DNA of 64,000 bases from Onthophagus taurus (lineage: Eukaryota; Arthropoda; Insecta; Coleoptera; Scarabaeidae). The position numbers were made by a program, and so were the translations under genes. Shown piece after piece: positions 20,974-47,576 of the stretch. A model generated the notes under the pieces. The model ran no database searches and had not been told where the DNA came from. It saw only the letters and a program-made list of their open reading frames with translations. How positions within the stretch are numbered: position 1 is the stretch's first letter; every line of letters begins with the position of its first letter. The DNA lies in contig NC_091970.1 in assembly GCF_036711975.1 (NCBI RefSeq), forward strand, positions 4,161,501 through 4,225,500, in the 5' to 3' direction.

Positions 20974-21909
20974 TTATTCTCCGATATATTTGGGTGGTCT
21001 TTTCTCATGGAAAGCATTTAAAGCCTCCGTTCTATCCTTCGTTGGGATAACCTGGGCGTAACAAGCCTCTTCAAATGATAATCCCGTGTTTAAATCAACT
21101 TCTAATCCTTTATTAATCGCTGCTTTTGCCATTCGAACACCAACGGGGCCATTTGGAACAATTTCTCTCGCAATATCTAATGATTTTTGATACGCAACAT
21201 CATCACCATCATTTTGTTTTAATGAATGATTAACGACGCCCATTTTAACAGCTTCGTCACCATCGAAAACTCGCCCGGTGTAAATTAATTCTTTAGCGAT
21301 TGACGGGTTAATTAACCTAGTTAATCGTTGAGTGCCTCCAGCTCCCGGAATAATAGCTAATTTAGTTTCAACCAAACCTAATTTAGCACTTGATGATGCA
21401 ATCCGCAAATCGCATGCTAATGCAAGTTCTAAACCTCCTCCTAAAGCGACACCATCCAAAGCAGCGATTACGGGAACTTGTAGATTATGTACAGTGTTTA
21501 TGACGCTTCTTAATTGATTGACAAACGTTTTAACTTGTTGAGGACTCATTGATAAACGTTCTTTTAAATCGGCACCAGCGCAAAACGCTCCTGGTACCAA
21601 ACTTCGGATTATTAATACCCTAAGATTACAATCCATGGAAGCTTCAAATAATTTCGATGACAATTCATTTACGAGGTTCATACTGAAGGCATTTTTCTGT
21701 TTGGGGCGATTCAATCCAAACACGGTAATTCCGCTATCTACACCTTCGAGTTTTTCAACAATCAAGTCTTTATGGGCGGCGTTACTCGCATACTTTCGAA
21801 CCATATTGGCTAAAATCGATGATTTAATGTTATTAAAGCGACGGAAAAACACCATTTTAGACACCATTGTGACACGACGAGATTTTACGAGAATTTTGGT
21901 CGAAGGCAA
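20974..21909 (-). CDS. Methylglutaconyl-CoA hydratase (AUH)
   Basis: A single uninterrupted frame of 311 residues. AUH hydrates 3-methylglutaconyl-CoA in mitochondrial leucine breakdown; vertebrate AUH also binds AU-rich RNA. The enoyl-CoA hydratase/crotonase core is clear: [39 protein letters not shown] (CoA and oxyanion region), [40 protein letters not shown] with the catalytic Glu, and the C-terminal [19 protein letters not shown]...FHEKRPP. The [11 protein letters not shown] and ACYAQxIPTKDR segments point to AUH rather than mitochondrial ECHS1. The first 45 residues are basic and hydroxylated, fitting a mitochondrial presequence; translation may start at Met1, Met15 or Met19. Head-to-head with licorne. 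Confidence 0.9.
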
Positions 21910-22642
21910 AGTACAAATGAAAATATATTAATACCACCCAGAGAGGTGCTTTTTGAAGATTATTTTTAACGTTAATTTTGATTTAGAACGATTTTAAACA
22001 TATTTTTATACGTGAAATTTCTCTAAGATGACATGTTAAAAACGAAAATAAAAACAAAAACATCTGTCAAACTTTTTTGGTCATAATAATTAATTAATTA
22101 TTATATTATTAGTAATAAAAATAAATTGAAAAAAAATAATTCATTTATTATTATTTTTTTAAAATAAATAAAATTTTATCATAAATTAATTAATTAATAA
22201 ATATTGAAATTGATATATGTTGCGTTATTTTATTGTTCATAGATGGCGCTTAATATTTAAAAAATGTTTCTAATTAATATAAATTAATTATTTATAAACA
22301 ATTAAAACTAAATTAATTTTAATCTAAAATTGTTTCTAAAAAAATTATTTATGCAAGATAAAATAAATAAATAAAAAAAAATACCTAGTACTTGAAAACG
22401 TTGATAACATTTCAAAATAAAAATCCCTAAATTTTTCCCTAACATCATTTATAGTAAAGCTTGGTGCCGTATTTTGCCCGATTTCGTATACAAATAAGGT
22501 AATTTATCGACGTTTTAAGAGTTATCATTCATATCGAAACATTTAAAAAAATTAATTCCCACTTTTCGTGGAATTATTTTTAACCCGATCCTTGTAGGGT
22601 CGGATTTTCTTCTCAATCAATTAGGTCGTAAAGCGATAAACG
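21910..22642. promoter_or_regulatory. Divergent intergenic region, AUH / licorne
   Basis: Very AT-rich 0.73-kb spacer between divergent start codons. An AGATGGCGC motif lies at 22241-22249. The right 100 bases are less AT-rich and probably include the licorne leader. Confidence 0.4.
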
Positions 22643-32064: not shown

Positions 32065-33805
32065 ATGTCTTTTTCCGTTTTAAAACGTTCGTTTTCAACG
32101 ACCGTTGGTAAAAATGCCATAAAAAATGTTGTGGTGATCGGAGGGGGTTTGATGGGCTCAGGAATAGCTCAGGTAATAATAACAATAACGCTTTAAATTC
32201 ATTTATTTATTTTATTAATAAAAATTTAATAAACAAGGTAACCGCCCAAGCAGGCCAAAATGTAACTTTAGTTGAAGTTAACGGAGATATCCTCAAAAAA
32301 GCTGAATCAAACATTGGAGTTAGTTTGGGGAGAGTTGCTAAGAAGCTTTTTAAAGATAAACCGGCTTCGGAAGCTGAAAAATTCGTAAATGACACCAAAA
32401 GTCGTATTAAAGGCACCACCGATGTTAAATCGGCTGTAACTGATGCTGATTTAGTCGTTGAAGCAATCATTGAAAACATTGATATCAAACATAAACTGTT
32501 TAAAACTTTGGATGAAACCGCTCCAGCAAAAACTTTATTTGCTTCAAACACTTCTTCGTTATCAATCGGTGAAATCGCTTCTGTTACTAACCGAAAGGAC
32601 CGATTCGGAGGATTGCATTTCTTCAACCCCGTTCCGATGATGCGTCTTTTAGAGGTGATTAGAATCCCGGAAACGAGCGATGAAACTTATAAAAGCTTCA
32701 TGGAATGGGGAAAAGCCATCGGAAAAACTTGCGTCACCTGCAAAGATACCCCCGGGTTCATCGTTAACCGCTTATTAGTTCCGTACATGGCCGAAGCTGT
32801 TCGATTATACGAAAGAGGTAAACAAAATTAATTTAAGTAATTAACAAAATTAAATTAAGTTAGTTTTTTGGTGATTTTGAGTGATTTGCATGCTAAAAAT
32901 TATAAATAGTAAGTAGTTGTGAGTAAATCTTTTATTTTTATTGAATCGTAAAAGTTAATTTTGTGATTTTATTGTTTTTAGGGGACGCTTCGGTGAAAGA
33001 TATCGATGTTGCGATGAAGTTAGGGGCCGGATACCCAATGGGGCCTTTAGAACTCGCCGATTACGTCGGGTTGGACACAACTCATTTTATTTTGCAGGGG
33101 TGGCACAAAAAGATGCCGAGCGAAAAACTTTTTAACACATTAAAAACCGTCGAGAAATTGGTTAAAGAGGGGAAATTGGGGGTTAAGTCCGGGGAGGGTT
33201 TTTATAATTACAAAAAATAGTTTAAATTGAATTTGAGGTTAGAAAGAGGTGAGGTTATGTCAAAAATGTATTTTGGCGTTTGTAATTAGTCGTTTTAATG
33301 AAATTGAATTAATTTTATTCATTAAATTAGGTGAATTTCATTCATATTTTAATTTAAAAGTAATAAGAAATTGTTTTAAAGTTTAATTAAATTTAAAATT
33401 ATATCAATTTCACATTTTTTTTTGACAGAGTGATATTTTTGTAACTTTTTTTAATAAAGAATTCTTATTGTAATTTCTTTTTAATTAATTATTATTATTA
33501 GATTGATTTTTGTTTTATTCTTGATGTTTAGATTATTTTAATAAGTAATTTTTTTTTTGATTTTAGGTGATGCTAGTTTTGAAGATATCGATATTGCAAT
33601 GAAATTGGGGGCTGGATACCCAATGGGGCCTTTTGAACTTCAAGATTATACTGGTTTAGATTTAGGCGTTCATATAATGGATGGTTGGGAGAAAAAGTTC
33701 CCGAACGACCCTCTCTTTAAGACATCAGAAACAATGAAAAAACTGGTTAAGGAAGGAAAATTCGGGAGAAAATCCGGCGAAGGTTTTTATAAATACACAA
33801 AATGA
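32065..33805 (+). CDS. Short-chain 3-hydroxyacyl-CoA dehydrogenase (HADH) with alternative last exons
   Basis: Common exons 32065-32172 and 32238-32817 are followed by either exon 3a (32982-33220) or exon 3b (33567-33805). Both 3' exons are 239 bases, start in the same phase and end in their own stop, so each gives a 308-residue enzyme. HADH oxidises L-3-hydroxyacyl-CoA to 3-ketoacyl-CoA in mitochondrial beta-oxidation. The N-terminus ([18 protein letters not shown]) looks like a targeting peptide. The Rossmann NAD site is [32 protein letters not shown] holds the catalytic His-Glu pair, and [11 protein letters not shown] follows. The swapped part is the helical C-terminal domain, [20 protein letters not shown] to SGEGFYxYxK, which forms the dimer and part of the acyl pocket. 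Confidence 0.93.
32982..33220 (+). CDS. HADH alternative last exon 3a
   Basis: Preceded by TGTTTTTAG and read in phase with exon 2. It encodes a 79-residue C-terminal domain containing [15 protein letters not shown] and ending EGFYNYKK. The YVGLDTT string equals the vertebrate HADH form. It has a somewhat higher GC content than exon 3b. Confidence 0.85.
33567..33805 (+). CDS. HADH alternative last exon 3b
   Basis: Preceded by TTGATTTTAG and in the same phase as 3a. The 79 encoded residues are about two-thirds identical to 3a by hand count (53 of 79). Differences cluster in the middle: [20 protein letters not shown] against [20 protein letters not shown]. The equal length and phase make mutually exclusive use the simplest reading. 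Confidence 0.85.
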
Positions 33806-33859
33806 AGTGGATTTAATAAATTCTTATTAAGTTTTTATTTAAGTGAGTAAAAAAAGTTA

Positions 33860-35557
33860 TTAACCCTCTAAATTTTCGATCTTATCGAGGTTATTTTTAT
33901 TTTTTGATCGGTTCAATTTGATTTGAATGTCACCAAATGATTTACCTTTAGTTTCTGGGACAACGCACCAAACGAAAACCATCCCCGCTAAGCAAACTCC
34001 TCCGAAGATCCAAAAAACCGTGTACAACCCCCACATTTCTAAAACTGGTTGATAAAATTTCGAAACAACAAACGACATAGAAACACCGTAAAAAATTATT
34101 AATGTTATAGCAGATTCTTTAATATTAACCGGAAATAATTCACCCATTAAGACATAGGGTAACGAAGAGACTCCAAGCGGAGTGCTTATTAAGAATACGA
34201 TTATCCCCGTTGTGGGGATCCAAGAGATATTCTTTAAATCTGATTTAAGTACATCTTGAATATAAAAATAGATTCCTTCTGATATTAAAGCTAAAGCACA
34301 TCCGAAGGCTGAGATTATTAAAAGTGGTTTACGACCAAGTTTGTCTACGATTGCACTTGCTAAAAAAGCTAAAAAAGAGATTGATTAATTTCATTTATTA
34401 ATATTATTAATAAAATAGGATGTTTTACCTGCAGGGAACTGTATGGCCCCAAAAATAATACTTGAGATTTCCGGAGATATCGAACTGGAACTCGACCCTA
34501 TAATACTTTGCATGTAAGATTCAATAGCAACAGTCCCACTCATACTATGCAATACTTTAACACCTAATTAAATCAAATTAAAAAATTTACGTAAAAAGTA
34601 AATTAACTCAAATGTCACCTGTCATAGTTAATAAACCTTTCCGATATCGAGGATTTCTAAATAACTCCACCATTCCGGATTTATTTCTCATATCCTCATT
34701 AACAACTTTTTCGATTTCATTCATTTTGCGTTCAAGATCATTCTCGTTTAACTCGTCACTCCCCAATATGGCCAAACTTTCTTTCGCCCGATGCTTCTCC
34801 CCAATTTTTAACAAATAATACGGCGATTCCGGCATAAAATAAATCGTACAAAAACAAATTAACGGCATCACACCGCAAATCACGCATAAAACTTGATAGG
34901 AAACGAACGGGCCAAAAGTCAAAACGACAAAGTGCCCCATTAACTTCATTATGGTGAAAGCTGTACCGAGTTTACCGCGAATTTCTTGATCGGCTATTTC
35001 GCTGTTGTATATTGTGACACCCTATAACAAAAATAAGGATGAAAATGATTTTTTTTGTTGTGGGGAAGATTATTTTACCGCTGTTATTGTGCCCGTTGCC
35101 ATTCCGGCGATGAATCTGCTGATGTATAAGATCCAAACTGAGTTTGCTAAGGTGATAGGGATCCAAGGGAGCATGATAAAAATTGATGAGAATAATAATG
35201 AGCGTCTGGGGCCGAATTTTTTGACGAAACTCGCTGAAAATGGGCATGTTACGATCCCTCCGAGGAGGATTATTGAGACAACCCATGAAGCCTCCGCCTA
35301 AAAAATAAGTCATTAATAACTTAAAATGAAATTAAATCATTTACATTTGTGATTTGAACCCCAATCGGTGAATTTTTCGATGTTAACTGAGGTAAAATCG
35401 GTGAAGACCATGTCACATAAGCCGTGTTTGAGCCGATTGTTAAGGAAGCTATAAAAAAAAGTTACCAAAACATTTTTTTTATTACTTTATTGTTTGCTTT
35501 AACCTTACCTGTTAACGCAGCTAAATATTGAACGTACTTTGATTTTTTTATAAACAT
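33860..35557 (-). CDS. Tret1-like MFS sugar transporter with apparent frameshift
   Basis: Exons 35509-35557, 35345-35448, 35079-35297, 34619-35021, 34429-34563 and 33860-34369 encode a sugar-porter MFS protein like facilitated trehalose transporter Tret1. Landmarks are YVQYLAALTASLTIGSNTAY, WSSPILPQL, RFIAGMATGTITAGVTIYNS and EIADQEIRGKLGT. These are followed by FMPESPYYLLKIGE, SAIVDKLGRKPL, PLGVSSLPYVLMGELFPVNI and VPETKGKSFGDIQ, so all family signatures are present. In the last exon the frame changes by one base at a run of five T (minus strand) near 34320, between GRKPL and the following helix. The sequences on both sides are well conserved, so this is either a recent inactivating change or a homopolymer sequencing error. 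Confidence 0.8.
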
Positions 35558-40979: not shown

Positions 40980-41564
40980 TAAACCGTTTGTTCTACTTTT
41001 GTCCGACGCTGTACGCGCGACACTCTAATATTGAGTTTCACGTCTCGGCCGTCAGATGACGTCGCGATCGTGTCGTCGTCCGTATAAAAATGGTGGTGCG
41101 TCCCAAGCGTACGTTGTCGGTTCAACGAAGAAGAATAATTTCAAGTTGGAACGAAGTACAAAGCAGGTTATAAAGACTGAAATCGTATCCGCATGTGATA
41201 GCCGAACTATTAAGCGTGATATCTCATCGACTAGTGATATATTCGAAGTGTTCCCGTTTAAATTAACCCGTCTCGTTAGTGTGTGTGTGAGTGTGTTGGT
41301 TTGTTTGGCAGTGTATGTGTGTGTTCGTGTGCGCGGACTCCGTCGTCGTTCTCCGCGTCCTACTCCTCCTACTCCTCATCCCGTACCGTGTGCACTACGG
41401 ACATATTATTTTAAGAAAGATCCGCTTACTACTGAGACTGATCCCCGAATCATCGCGCGAATTTATTGTGAATTGTGGTTAATTTTACGTACAATATCTA
41501 ATAAAAATAAAAATCGTAGTGCCCCCATCATTGGAGAATTCCCTTAGAAGTTATTTGTAGAAAA
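40980..41564 (+). promoter_or_regulatory. gw: Candidate alternative promoter and long leader exon of gawky
   Basis: CpG-rich segment with a CRE-like TGACGTCG near 41057, a GT-rich tract near 41280-41335, and a good donor (AAAAGTAAGT, exon end 41564). The following acceptor (TTTTTACTAG) at 41698-41699 opens the first gawky coding exon. An open frame of 163 codons (41056-41547) lies inside; its Arg/Val-rich, repetitive make-up and lack of family resemblance suggest a leader, not a protein. The exon 5' end is not determined. Confidence 0.5.
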
Positions 41565-41739
41565 GTAAGTTTTATGCGTCGTATTAGCCGTATACAGGGG
41601 TACTTAGTATTGGATTGTTGACACTCGCGAATATAGGTGGTCTAAAAGTTCGTGTACAAAATTTTTTTAAAGTAACTAATTTTTTTTGTTTTTTACTAGA
41701 TCTCTGGCTGGCCAGAACTGACATGGAGCACTAGCTACG

Positions 41740-44700
41740 ATGCGCGTCCCCACTCCCTCCGAGCCGAAAAACTATACATTTCCTACCTTTCAAGTGCCTC
41801 AACTGTCAGCCATGAGGGGCCGCGCACCCCTAGTACAACAGAAACATCAGCAGCAGCAAGAGTATGAAGAAGGGGCGCCGCCGCCGATAGAAAAGTTGAC
41901 GTTGATGAAGATGGCGGCGCCGCCATCCACACCGCACTGGCAGCGGCAAGCAGCGTCCGGGGCCCAGCGGGGGGGCAGAGCCGACCCCCCGCCGCCGGCT
42001 CCGTCCCACGTCATACACTCTGTGATAGCCGGCTCAGGTCGTAGCGGAGAGAACGGTTTAAACCCACCGCTGAGGGGCAAAACCGATCTGCGCTGCGACC
42101 CGACTAATAACGTTAGGACGATGCAATCTGTGACCGAAAACTGTCTTCTGAACTCTGTTACCGTACCAAATAAATGTAATAAGAATAATATTATTATTAA
42201 TAATAGTAAGGATAATAACGATGATATAATAGTAATAGTTAATGAATGGGGTTACGACGACGAGCGAAAGAAACAACAGCAACAACGTAATAATGATAAG
42301 TCAAATTTAGCCATTAAGTGTATCGGTGCTTTAAACCATCATTTCTCTTCTCAAGACATTCCCTACGAAAAGTCTGATGACCTCCTCGAAAAATACTATG
42401 ATAACGATGACGACGATTTTGAACCTACTATTACTGCTACTTCTACGGACCTACCGACAATTAATAATGCCTACTTCGGCAATTCATTCTACCGCCAACG
42501 TGATATCACAACCACCACCAACACTTTCAGTACCTCGAAATTAATCTATGAAGACAATTATGATTATTCTAGGGCGTACGCGCCTCCATTGAGGTTACGA
42601 GGTGGAGGAGAAAGCTCTATCAGCGCAGGCACTACCGGGTGGGGTACACCCCCATCACAACAGGCCAGTAATAATAACGGTAAGAAAATATCACAATAAC
42701 TAATTCGATTGAAAACAAAATGATTAAAACAACGGATCCAATTCCTGAAATAATTTGATTACGATAAGTTTATTATGATTTTAAAATATGTTTAATTAAT
42801 TAATTAATAATTACATTTTTTAAAATTTTGTTTAAAGGAAACACCAGCGGGTGGGGCACAGCAAATTCGACCAATCAAAACAACGCGGGTACACAACAGT
42901 GGAACACAAATTCTAACAGACCGCCTACCTCTGGCCCTGGCAACTCTCAGGATTGTAAGTTCTCTTTTTAAATTTTGTTTTAATTTTAATTATAAACAAT
43001 TTTAGCCAATAAACAAAACTCGAACCTGCCACAAAACGGCCAACAACCGCCCACGACGCAATCGAACAACGGTTGGGGTCAGCCGAGTAAGCCCCAACCT
43101 GGTGGCTCAGTACCGAACGCCGTAGCCACCGTTAACAACCCATCGGCAAACGCAAACTCGAACAACGCGCAAGGACAACAATCGAACTCGACCAAACAGC
43201 AATTGGAACAATTAACGAATATGCGAGAGGCTATCTTCAGTCACGATGGATGGGGAGGCGTAAGTTATTTATTAAAAAAATCTTAATTAAAAGAAATTAA
43301 TAATTTTTTATTAATAACAGCAACACGTAAACCAAGATACCAACTGGGACATTCCTGGTTCTCCTGAACCCCAATTAAAAATGGACGGATCTGGAACGCA
43401 AGCTTGGAAACCGACTGTTAATAACGGAACTGAATTGTGGGAGGCTAATTTACGCAACGGCGGTCAACCACCACCACAACCCCAACAAAAAGCTCCGTGG
43501 GGGCATACACCTTCCACTAATATTGGGGGTACTTGGGGCGAAGATGATGATGTTACTGATAGTTCTAATGTATGGACTGGAGTTCCACCCGCACAGCAAC
43601 CTTGGGGTGGAGCCAATAATGCTAACACTGGGAATACAAGCAATACTACAGCTATGTGGGGTGGTAAGACTAAATTATTTTACAAAAAATAACATACATA
43701 ATCATAAATTTGACGTATTAGGTCCTAAAAAAGAAAACGATTGGGGCACGGGTGGTGCAACTAACGCTGCCGCTTGGGGCGATCCTAGAACCGCAGATCC
43801 ACGTGCTGCTGCAATGGATCCTCGTGATATGCGTCCGGATCACCGTGATATTCGCACTGGAACTTCTGATCCAATGCGTATGCTTGATCCAAGAGATCAA
43901 ATGAGGCTTGTTGGGGGAGATATGCGAGGAGATCCTAGAGGTAAATTATTAATTTTTTAAATTGATATTTTTAAATACATTATTAAATATTTAAGGTATA
44001 ACTGGAAGATTAAATGGAGCAGGAGCAGACGCATTTTGGACTCAAACCGCTCAACAAACAACCACACATCACATGCATCAACCCAAGATGCCGATGGGTC
44101 CTGGAAATAACACCGGATGGGAGGAGCCTTCACCACCATCGCAAAGACGAAATATTCCTCCTAATTATGATGATGGAACATCTTTATGGGGTAATCCTCA
44201 ACAAGGTATGATTAATAAATAAAAGAATCCTTTCAATCCAAGGTGATATCGCTTTATTATTGGCGTGTTACAATTTCAGAAAGGAAAATTATATTAGGAT
44301 AACAAATCTAGATTGCATTTATTATTTCTATAAATGTAAATCAACACAGTTATCTACATTTCTTTTTTTTTTTTACTTAATTTAGGGATTAATTTGAATT
44401 ATTTTTTTGTTTTAAGGTGGGGCAATGGGTAGAAACAACGCAGCCGGACCACCGGGTATGCCTCAATCGCGCATTAAACCAGATGGAGCCGTTTGGGGTC
44501 ATGGTCGTAATGGTTCTTGGGATGATTCTGGTCCGGGATGGGATGAAACGGGTCCATGGCCAAAACAAAAACTTCCTGGCGCCCCAATTTGGGATAACGA
44601 CGGCGATTGGGTTGGTCACAAACCGGGACCTAAACAACCACCAATTAGTAAAGAATTGCTGTGGAATTCTCGCCAATTCCGCACCTTGGTCGATATGGGA

Positions 44701-47576
44701 TATAAAAAGGAAGACGTCGAAAACGCGCTTCGTATGCGCGATATGAACATGGATGATGCCCTTGATATGCTCGGCACTTTGAGGAATCAAAATTTAGACG
44801 GCTGGAGAGGCAGGCATGATGATCATTACGATCACCCACAATTCGCGGGGCAACGATTCCCGACGGGGCCGGCTGCACAAATGAATTTCCCCCCGGGTGC
44901 AAATCCTCCGAGCTTGTTGAACAATTTAAATAGCGCCGCCGCTGGCGCGAATAGTTCGCTTATAAACAACATGTCGCCGGCTATAGTACAAAAAATGCTG
45001 TCGCAGAGCGGTGGAAATCAAAGCTATGGAGCTTCTAACCTGCCCGGCGCCAGGTCAGCTTTGCAACCCCCCTCGCAACCATCTACCGCTCAATTGAGGA
45101 TGCTGGTACAGCAGATTCAGATGGCTGTTCAAGCTGGATACTTGAATCATCAGGCAATAATAAATAAATTATATTAAAATTATTTTTTATTAATTATTTT
45201 TTTGTTTCGTTAGATATTGAATCAGCCATTAGCACCGCAAACGTTGGTGTTACTGAATCAGCTGCTTCAGCAGATCAAAACGTTACAGCAATTGGGTAAT
45301 CAACAGAATATGGCTCAGCAGCAGTGTATTGGAGGCAAGGCCAATAATACCTATCTGCAGTGTTCAGTTTTAATTACAAAGACTAAACAGCAAATACAAA
45401 ATTTGCAGGTAAATTTTAATTTTGTTTATTTTAATATGTTACCTTCTTGACCCATTTGATATGGACTAAATGAAAAAGTTATCCGTGTCTATAGTAACAA
45501 GAAGGAAATAAAACTGAAATTAATTGTGAGTGATTTGTATTATTTTGTTACAAGTTTATAATTAATTTCAGACATTAATTAATGATTTGTATGTATTTAG
45601 AATTTTTTTAAATCTTTATTTTTATTGATTATTTATTTTTTTGTTTTTAAGAATCAAATAGCAGCTCAACAGGCAATTTACGTTAAACAGCAGCACAACA
45701 TGGGTTCAGGCGGTGCGCCGACTGACTTATTTAAGTCCACCGCAATGCACGATTCCATCAATTCGTTACAAAGCAATTTTGCCGATATTGGTCTCAAGGA
45801 TACTCAGATGGTAGTAAATGAAATTAAATTAAATAAAAAAGTTAATGTTTGTTATTGTAGAGCCAGCAGCAATCTCGTTTGAACCAGTGGAAGCTGCCCA
45901 CGCTCGATAAAGAGGAGGGCGGGGAATTTAGTAGAGCCCCTGGATCCGTTTCTAAGTCACTCGCCCCCTCTCACAGTTCTCCGAATCTCAATAATCCTCT
46001 TGGTCTAACTCAACCGGATGGGTAGATTAATAAAAATAATTTTTTTTATTTAAATTTATTTCAATTAAATTATTAGGCCTTGGTCTAGTGGACGTTCTGG
46101 TGATACAGGTTGGCCAGATTCCGGAGCAGGAGATGCTGGAGCTCCTGATCTTAAAGATTCTTCCCAATGGGTTAACGATTTAGTACCTGAATTTGAACCT
46201 GGAAAACCCTGGAAGGTAAATTAAATTTTTGTATCAAATTAAATTGTTGAATTTTTTAAAAATTTTTATTTTGATTAGGGAACACAAATGAAATCAATTG
46301 AAGATGATCCAAGCATCACCCCAGGTTCAGTCGTGCGATCTCCACTCTCCGTTGCCACGATTAAAAACGACAACGAACTATTCAATATAAACGCTAATAA
46401 GAGTCCGCCATTAGGCGATAATTTAACTCCTCTCAGTTTAAGCTCGTCCACTTGGAGTTTTAACCCGCCCGCATCAACTGCTACGATGATTTCAAGGTAT
46501 AACAAAAAACATATTCATTAAAAATGAATTAAATTCAATGATTATAAAACACGGATCCAATTCCTGAAAGATTTCTTGATTACATTTAATATAAAAATGA
46601 TTTTTTTTAAATAAAAGTTTTTTTTTATTAATTTTTGATGGGGGATTAATTTATAATTTTCTTTTTTAGTCCGCAAAATAAACTGCCCACTTCGAAAGTA
46701 GTCCTCGGAGACTTAAACACGCCTACTGCCGTCACAACTGAATTGTGGGGCGCCCCGAAACCGCGCGGACCTCCACCTGGCCTATCCGCCAAAGGAATCA
46801 ACGGTTGGTCGAGTAATTTGGGTGGAAATGCTTCGGGTCCGTGGGGTGGAACCCAAAGGAATTGGTGCCAAGGAGGCGGTTCTCCATGGGTTTTACTTAA
46901 AAATTTAACTGCCCAGGTTTGTATCTATTGAATTATTCTCATACTAATTCTTAGATAGTTCATCGGTTTTATATGATGAATTAATTTAATGAATTTTTTA
47001 ATGATCATTACTAAGAGGACGTAATTCTGATTAATAAATATTTAATTAATTAATTATATTAAAAAAAAAGGAAATTAAGATTTTTTTCTTTGTTTTAGAT
47101 TGACGGTTCTACTTTACGCACACTTTGTATGCAACATGGTCCGTTACAGAGTTTCCATTTACATCAAGGATTTGCTTTAATTAAATACACAACTCGCGAA
47201 GAAGCTGCTAAGGTATTTTTAATTAACTTAGAATTGTTTTTTTATTTATTAAAACATTTTTTAGGCTCAAACTGCATTAAATAATTGCGTTTTGGGTAAT
47301 ACAACAATTTTGGCTGAGAATCCATCTGAATGGGAAGCAAGTCTTCATTTACAACAAGTGTCGAGTCAACAAGGTGGTTCAACGGGATCGTGGCGTAACT
47401 CTGGTAAACAACAAGTTGTCGGTACGGCTGATACATGGAGTACTGGTTGGCCAAATGCTTCGTCGACGAGTTTATGGGGATCAAGCGCCCTTGATTCAGC
47501 CGATCAATCTAGGGCCACCCCATCGAGCCTCAATTCTTATCTACCCGGTGATCTTTTGGGTGGTGAATCTATGTAA
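41740..47576 (+). CDS. gw: Gawky / GW182 (TNRC6) microRNA silencing protein
   Basis: Fifteen coding exons: 41740-42679, 42838-42954, 43006-43259, 43321-43663, 43722-43940, 43996-44205, 44417-45153, 45214-45408, 45652-45810, 45861-46021, 46077-46215, 46279-46496, 46670-46916, 47099-47212 and 47265-47576; 1454 residues. GW182 links Argonaute to poly(A)-binding protein and deadenylases in P-bodies. Residues 1-313 are low-complexity. GW/WG repeats follow ([31 protein letters not shown]) with the conserved [24 protein letters not shown] domain lies near 770-815 ([20 protein letters not shown]). Then come a Q-rich region, [22 protein letters not shown], an RRM near 1300-1370 ([20 protein letters not shown]) and the C-terminal GGESM shared with vertebrate TNRC6. 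Start at 41740 follows a three-codon upstream frame. Confidence 0.95.

Follow-up and report, generated by a model that had tools for sequence, protein, structure and literature searches.

Putative alternative last exons from a tandem duplication in a mitochondrial HADH gene of Onthophagus taurus

Introduction

HADH is usually regarded as a single housekeeping enzyme. In the beetle Onthophagus taurus, the HADH gene ends in two successive and similar 3' exons, which raises the question of whether one locus may encode two versions of the enzyme and, if so, which parts of the protein would differ between them. We addressed this question in the window, i.e. the whole stretch of 64,000 nucleotides that was analysed (NCBI RefSeq assembly GCF_036711975.1, contig NC_091970.1, positions 4,161,501 to 4,225,500). 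The explanation that we consider highly probable from the DNA is that the last exon of this mitochondrial HADH gene was tandemly duplicated long ago, with both copies retained as alternative last exons that would provide two tuned isoforms (A and B).

Structure of the HADH locus

Exon borders were read from the sequence together with homology, and the position of helix alpha8 in exon 2 was taken from the worm structure (PMC3999109). The features of the locus, in positions of the window, are:

Upstream of HADH, opposite strand: open frame of SRP68
32065..32172, plus strand: HADH exon 1, with ATG at 32065 and donor GT at 32173; N-terminal presequence-like stretch and beginning of the NAD fold
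32238..32817, plus strand: HADH exon 2, common to both putative isoforms; remainder of the NAD domain, plus core dimer helix alpha8; donor GT at 32818
32818..32981, plus strand: intron 5' of exon 3a, 19% G+C
32982..33220, plus strand: last exon 3a (alternative), 239 bases that encode 79 residues and a stop; PF00725 at 81.4 bits
33221..33566, plus strand: spacer, comprising the putative 3'UTR of 3a (AATAAA at 33453) and the intron before 3b, 17% G+C
33567..33805, plus strand: last exon 3b (alternative), 239 bases that encode 79 residues and a stop; PF00725 at 88.9 bits
33815..33820, plus strand: AATAAA, candidate poly(A) signal of 3b
Just downstream of HADH, minus strand: open frame of a sugar transporter, stop at 33860-33862

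The preliminary description had proposed two successive 239-base 3' exons in HADH, and the coordinates, phase, acceptors and stops all agree with it. Each exon has its own acceptor and its own stop, the phases match, both are open over 79 codons, and exon 2 joined to either 3a or 3b encodes an open protein of 308 residues in identical phase. Alignment of the spliced product with human HADH (3had, E = 7e-108) covers residues 11-307 and that with worm HADH (4j0e, E = 1.5e-100) residues 13-308, and the Pfam families 3HCDH_N and 3HCDH score 200.8 and 115.1 bits in isoform A and 201.2 and 122.6 bits in isoform B. By alignment with known HADH, the conserved catalytic His-Glu pair, the identity of whose two residues is our assumption, lies in the shared part. 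The existence of such a pair in HADH is described in PMC3999109.

The G+C content of the whole window is 31%. Along the HADH coding sequence, third-position G+C is 0.24-0.39 over codons 1-152 and rises to 0.53-0.58 over codons 153-304, which reach into exon 3a. In exon 3b the values are 0.23 and then 0.44, and in seven further stretches they range over 0.28-0.39. Exon 3a is thus like the adjoining end of exon 2 in its G+C-rich third positions, and 3b is unlike it.

The sugar transporter frame ends about 55 bases past the stop of 3b (33806-33862), and since this distance is so short, the convergent 3' ends of HADH and the transporter probably overlap. About 10 kb from HADH, at 20974-21927 on the minus strand, lies a gene of the enoyl-CoA hydratase/isomerase family in one open frame (ECH_1, 190 bits). 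Long open frames, partly rich in Gly, Asn and Gln, occupy 41035-45177 on the plus strand and presumably recall GW182/gawky.

Homology of the two last exons

Exons 3a and 3b, which are separated by 346 bases, share 70% of their nucleotides and 53 of 79 residues (67%), a count that bears out the protein identity of about 67% given in the preliminary description. The two last exons hit one another in tblastn at E = 1.75e-32, and each exon alone passes the Pfam 3HCDH cut-off of 22.1 bits (81.4 bits for 3a and 88.9 bits for 3b), so that their likeness is far beyond chance. No second copy of HADH was found in the 64-kb window by tblastn with both last exons and the part encoded by exons 1 and 2. Two adjacent and homologous 3' exons of this kind are a mark of alternative last exons from tandem duplication, and on its sequence the pair is a candidate for that class. 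The swapped exon does not hold the entire C-terminal domain, as had been claimed, since the Pfam domain spans residues 209-306 and the exon begins at residue 230.

Constraint on both copies

The two copies differ at 70 of 237 bases, with 20, 12 and 38 differences at codon positions 1, 2 and 3, respectively. A Nei-Gojobori count gives dN 0.27 and dS 1.02 (dN/dS about 0.26), where the dS near 1 is imprecise, with 10 of 22 fourfold sites differing. Only 26 residue changes are seen between 3a and 3b, compared to a minimum of 35 in 5000 unconstrained simulations of 70 changes. On a profile of 32 bacterial rows plus human and worm, 3a scores 119.9 bits and 3b 116.6 bits. In a neutral control that starts from the present-day copies, and whose profile includes human and worm, copies carrying 70 changes (1000 each of 3a and 3b) reach means of 29.4 and 27.9 bits and best scores of 66.2 and 59.6 bits, with 6.5% (3a) and 4.3% (3b) of them still free of stops; after 20 changes the means are 89.4 (3a) and 87.8 (3b) and the best scores 112.3 and 106.3.

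The comparison of substitution rates that the preliminary description had called for finds neither copy visibly faster: 3b and 3a carry 6 v 7 lineage changes with human as outgroup, 6 v 8 with pig and 6 v 5 with worm, small counts at 11 to 14 sites that have little power and would leave a modest difference undetectable. Summed over all 26 differing sites, the log2 bacterial frequencies are -102.4 for 3a and -97.4 for 3b, and neither copy is therefore a clear outlier. These results support protein-level constraint on both last exons, with no sign of decay in the sequence of 3b.

An alternative explanation is that one copy, most likely 3b, is unused or decaying and is spliced in rarely or never. 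It would fit the loss from 3b of three residues conserved in the majority of the 32 bacterial rows, as well as the G+C-rich third positions that 3a, and not 3b, has in common with the adjacent end of exon 2. We nevertheless find it improbable, in that 3b is about equal to 3a both on Pfam and on the separate profile, is open over 79 codons with acceptor and stop intact, and has changed no faster. The status of 3b as a pseudogene or decaying copy was rejected on the profile scores, the stop-free frame and the relative rates.

Splice signals and 3' ends

The acceptors of 3a and 3b have a pyrimidine content of 72% and 78%, respectively. AATAAA occurs at 33453 (0.75 expected by chance) and at 33815 (0.27 expected by chance), and poly(A) signals were set aside as proof, the number of AATAAA motifs being not above chance. 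Competing RNA pairing between intron and spacer does not reach significance, since 17 of the 200 shuffles (first-order Markov draws) are as strong, and RNA pairing was for that reason dropped as a selector of exons.

A scan of all GT sites from the start of 3a to 33566 identified seven donor-like sites in the spacer (33221-33566), with those at 33249 and 33331 the strongest. Each fits the donor consensus in 6 or 7 of its 9 positions, and HADH's own donors score 7 of 9 (exon 1) and 6 of 9 (exon 2). No GT with a donor score of at least 6 of 9 lies in the coding part of 3a, the donor-like sites being found solely past its stop. Since the spacer sites score like HADH donors, the tail of 3a could be spliced to the acceptor of 3b, and by sequence some isoform A transcripts could carry 3b as 3'UTR. 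The same observations, i.e. seven spacer sites equal to the gene's own donors and a coding part of 3a devoid of them, would also suit a scenario where 3b is mainly 3'UTR, with a post-stop donor of 3a (e.g. GAG/GTGAGG at 33249) joined to the 3b acceptor and isoform A as the only product. Short donor matches are weak evidence, however, and an exon used as UTR would not retain its frame and its protein-level constraint along 79 codons, which leaves this scenario highly improbable in our judgement.

The preliminary description had termed the two exons mutually exclusive. This stands for the proteins, in that the stop of 3a ends the coding sequence and a dedicated exclusion device is unnecessary; it fails in the sense of an internal cluster, and an exclusion device has no support. 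An internal cluster of the Dscam or Mhc type was rejected, as 3a ends in a stop and has no GT of that donor score in its coding part. Usage of the term varies in the literature, with PMC3228551 reserving it for internal exon clusters and PMC9013439 applying it to terminal exons as well. Because 3a carries a stop, it is simpler to call the pair alternative last exons.

Age of the duplication

Within the part encoded by exon 3, 3a shares 49/78 residues with human, 50/78 with pig and 51/79 with worm HADH, and 3b shares 50, 52 and 50 residues with the same three proteins. Human and worm share 51/78, and either copy is about as distant from human or worm HADH as human is from worm. A tree built from 29 bacterial and 5 animal rows sets the animals apart by a supported branch (98/96), and 3a and 3b fall on that side with human, pig and worm, as fits an animal host. 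Within this group only human with pig is resolved, and 3a, 3b and worm are not; the end branches measure 0.30 (3a), 0.33 (3b) and 0.31 (worm). These distances and the unresolved tree imply either that the duplication is very old or that protein change was faster at a later time. The dS between the copies, which is imprecise and not plainly saturated, leans towards later, faster protein change. In a prokaryotic collection of genome contigs, 66 candidate stretches yielded 4 bacterial loci, and in a collection of viral contigs 6 candidate stretches yielded 0 matches, both collections being silent on insects.

Residues that distinguish 3a and 3b

The differences are unevenly spread along the exon, with 3/22 residues changed in the first part, 19/36 in exon residues 23-58 and 4/21 after. 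The segment of residues 23-58 corresponds to about helices 10-12, which would border the cofactor cleft and a mobile region responsive to the dimer interface; in worm HADH, regions of large fluctuation have been reported at 60-80 and 260-280 (PMC3999109). Identical in both copies is the motif LGAGYPMGP, which lies between alpha9 and alpha10. The tunnel that receives the pantetheine arm in human HADH is shaped jointly by the DH2-DH3 loops of the two subunits and a loop from the NAD domain (PMC5715344), and in our reading LGAGYPMGP is the pantetheine-tunnel loop. Models of the 79-residue pieces, predicted from 4-row alignments at low confidence (mean pLDDT 54.8 and 59.6), suggest four helices in like places in both.

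Exon 3b has T253, L257 and G258 (human numbering), residues absent at these positions from the 32 bacterial rows, human, pig and worm. The bacterial rows have V at 253 in 30 cases, T at 257 in 28 and T at 258 in 26. Worm HADH has I at 253, T at 257 and V at 258, so that positions 253 and 258 vary among animals. Among 59 distinct bacterial domain rows, a larger set than the 32 above, L at 257 occurs in one (L047) and G at 258 in another (L062, in a long open frame), which is no more than a hint. Exon 3a has departures of its own, namely L at 278, where human, pig and worm have S and 26/32 bacterial rows have P, and V at 292, where 25/32 bacterial rows and worm have R and human and pig have K. 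Among residues mutated in human disease, P246 falls within the swapped part and is the same in both copies, and Y214 falls within the shared part. V253 is the cleft residue by which closure of the HADH domains is measured (PMC5715344 and a second paper). The three positions at which 3b breaks with the family (253, 257 and 258) lie near the cleft, and a different acyl chain-length preference of A versus B is therefore possible.

Position of the swapped exon relative to the dimer interface

In worm HADH, the core dimer contact is helix alpha8 (201-219), and a further contact comes from alpha9 (224-235), which touches strands beta7-beta8 of the other subunit (PMC3999109). With W260 of PMC3999109 set on our alignment, the swapped exon would begin at about worm residue 220, just past alpha8, in which case alpha8 and the Arg-Glu salt bridge would stay in shared exon 2 and alpha9 onward would be replaced. 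The proposal that the swapped domain forms the HADH dimer consequently holds in part: the alpha9 contact would be swapped, and the core dimer helix would remain in the shared exon.

This placement bears on whether the exons might set the dimer partners, pairing A with A and B with B as separate enzymes; different partners were one of the possibilities named in the preliminary description. Although alpha9 of the swapped exon touches the other subunit as described above, and the two copies differ at three residues within or next to this helix (exon positions 5, 6 and 10), alpha8 and its salt bridge would lie in the shared exon, so that partner choice via the main dimer contact is less likely and A and B should pair freely. 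We therefore see strict partner choice as very improbable, and from the sequence two tuned forms of one dimer appear likelier than exclusive partners.

Proposed model and significance

Under the explanation of two retained alternative last exons, exon 2 would be spliced to 3a with cleavage in the spacer to give isoform A, or 3a would be skipped and exon 2 spliced to 3b to give isoform B. Both isoforms would have a common NAD domain, catalytic His-Glu pair, core dimer helix and the same pantetheine-tunnel loop, and would differ in the helices that face the cleft, mainly in exon residues 23-58. A and B may each be catalytically competent and tuned in closure rate, turnover or acyl preference, and mixed dimers might form too. 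We infer transcription of both exons, the cleavage sites, mixed dimers and a functional difference from the genomic sequence.

More tentatively, and with rather less than even confidence, we propose that an old and conserved exon pair yields two forms of HADH that have the catalytic domain and the dimer core in common, have different helices facing the cleft, differ in chain length or turnover, form mixed dimers and are switched between tissues or stages. Human HADH acts over a broad range of chain lengths, from C4 to C16 (PMC5715344). Human C-terminal disease mutations and worm dimer-interface mutants have raised the question of how catalysis is tuned from a distance (PMC3999109). A natural exchange of helices 9-12, in which the catalytic domain and the dimer core stay constant, would allow such C-terminal tuning to be tested cleanly. 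If the model is true, it would show that an insect can diversify a core step of fat oxidation by splicing rather than by gene duplication.

Comparison with known systems

Either copy belongs to the same family as human HADH (1F0Y) and the C. elegans enzyme (4J0E/4J0F), with 49-51 identical residues of 78-79 in the part encoded by exon 3. The human HADH gene has 8 exons, and a duplicated last exon is not mentioned in the consulted parts of the paper that gives this number (PMC3999109). Among the matches listed in the open-access literature, where part of the searching did not join the enzyme with splicing, no HADH with a duplicated last exon was found.

Other mitochondrial enzymes have comparable arrangements. 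Oyster AOX, which is not an HADH, has a duplicated exon and spliced isoforms (PMC5589949). Exons 4a/4b of OGDH are mutually exclusive and likewise yield isoforms, though this enzyme is not HADH and, judged by their numbering, these are not last exons (PMC7969005). In Drosophila pip and PGRP-LC, tandem homologous terminal exons are in alternative use (PMC9013439). A mechanism of competing RNA structure is reported for PGRP-LC, whereas the HADH locus has no significant competing pairing; pip and PGRP-LC encode other proteins, and the terminal exon clusters of pip are described in a UTR setting (PMC9013439).

Insect serpins offer a further parallel, with C-terminal alternatives in 192/731 genes of one clade (PMC10513286). 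As in PpSerpin-1, the HADH gene has a shared body, duplicated 3' coding exons and one fixed joint, and a functional C-terminal part is changed; unlike the 21 accelerated exons of 44-50 residues in PpSerpin-1, HADH has two well-constrained exons in a metabolic enzyme (PMC10513286). Duplicated alternative terminal exons are thus an established kind, as in insect serpins, pip and PGRP-LC, of which HADH would be a further member.
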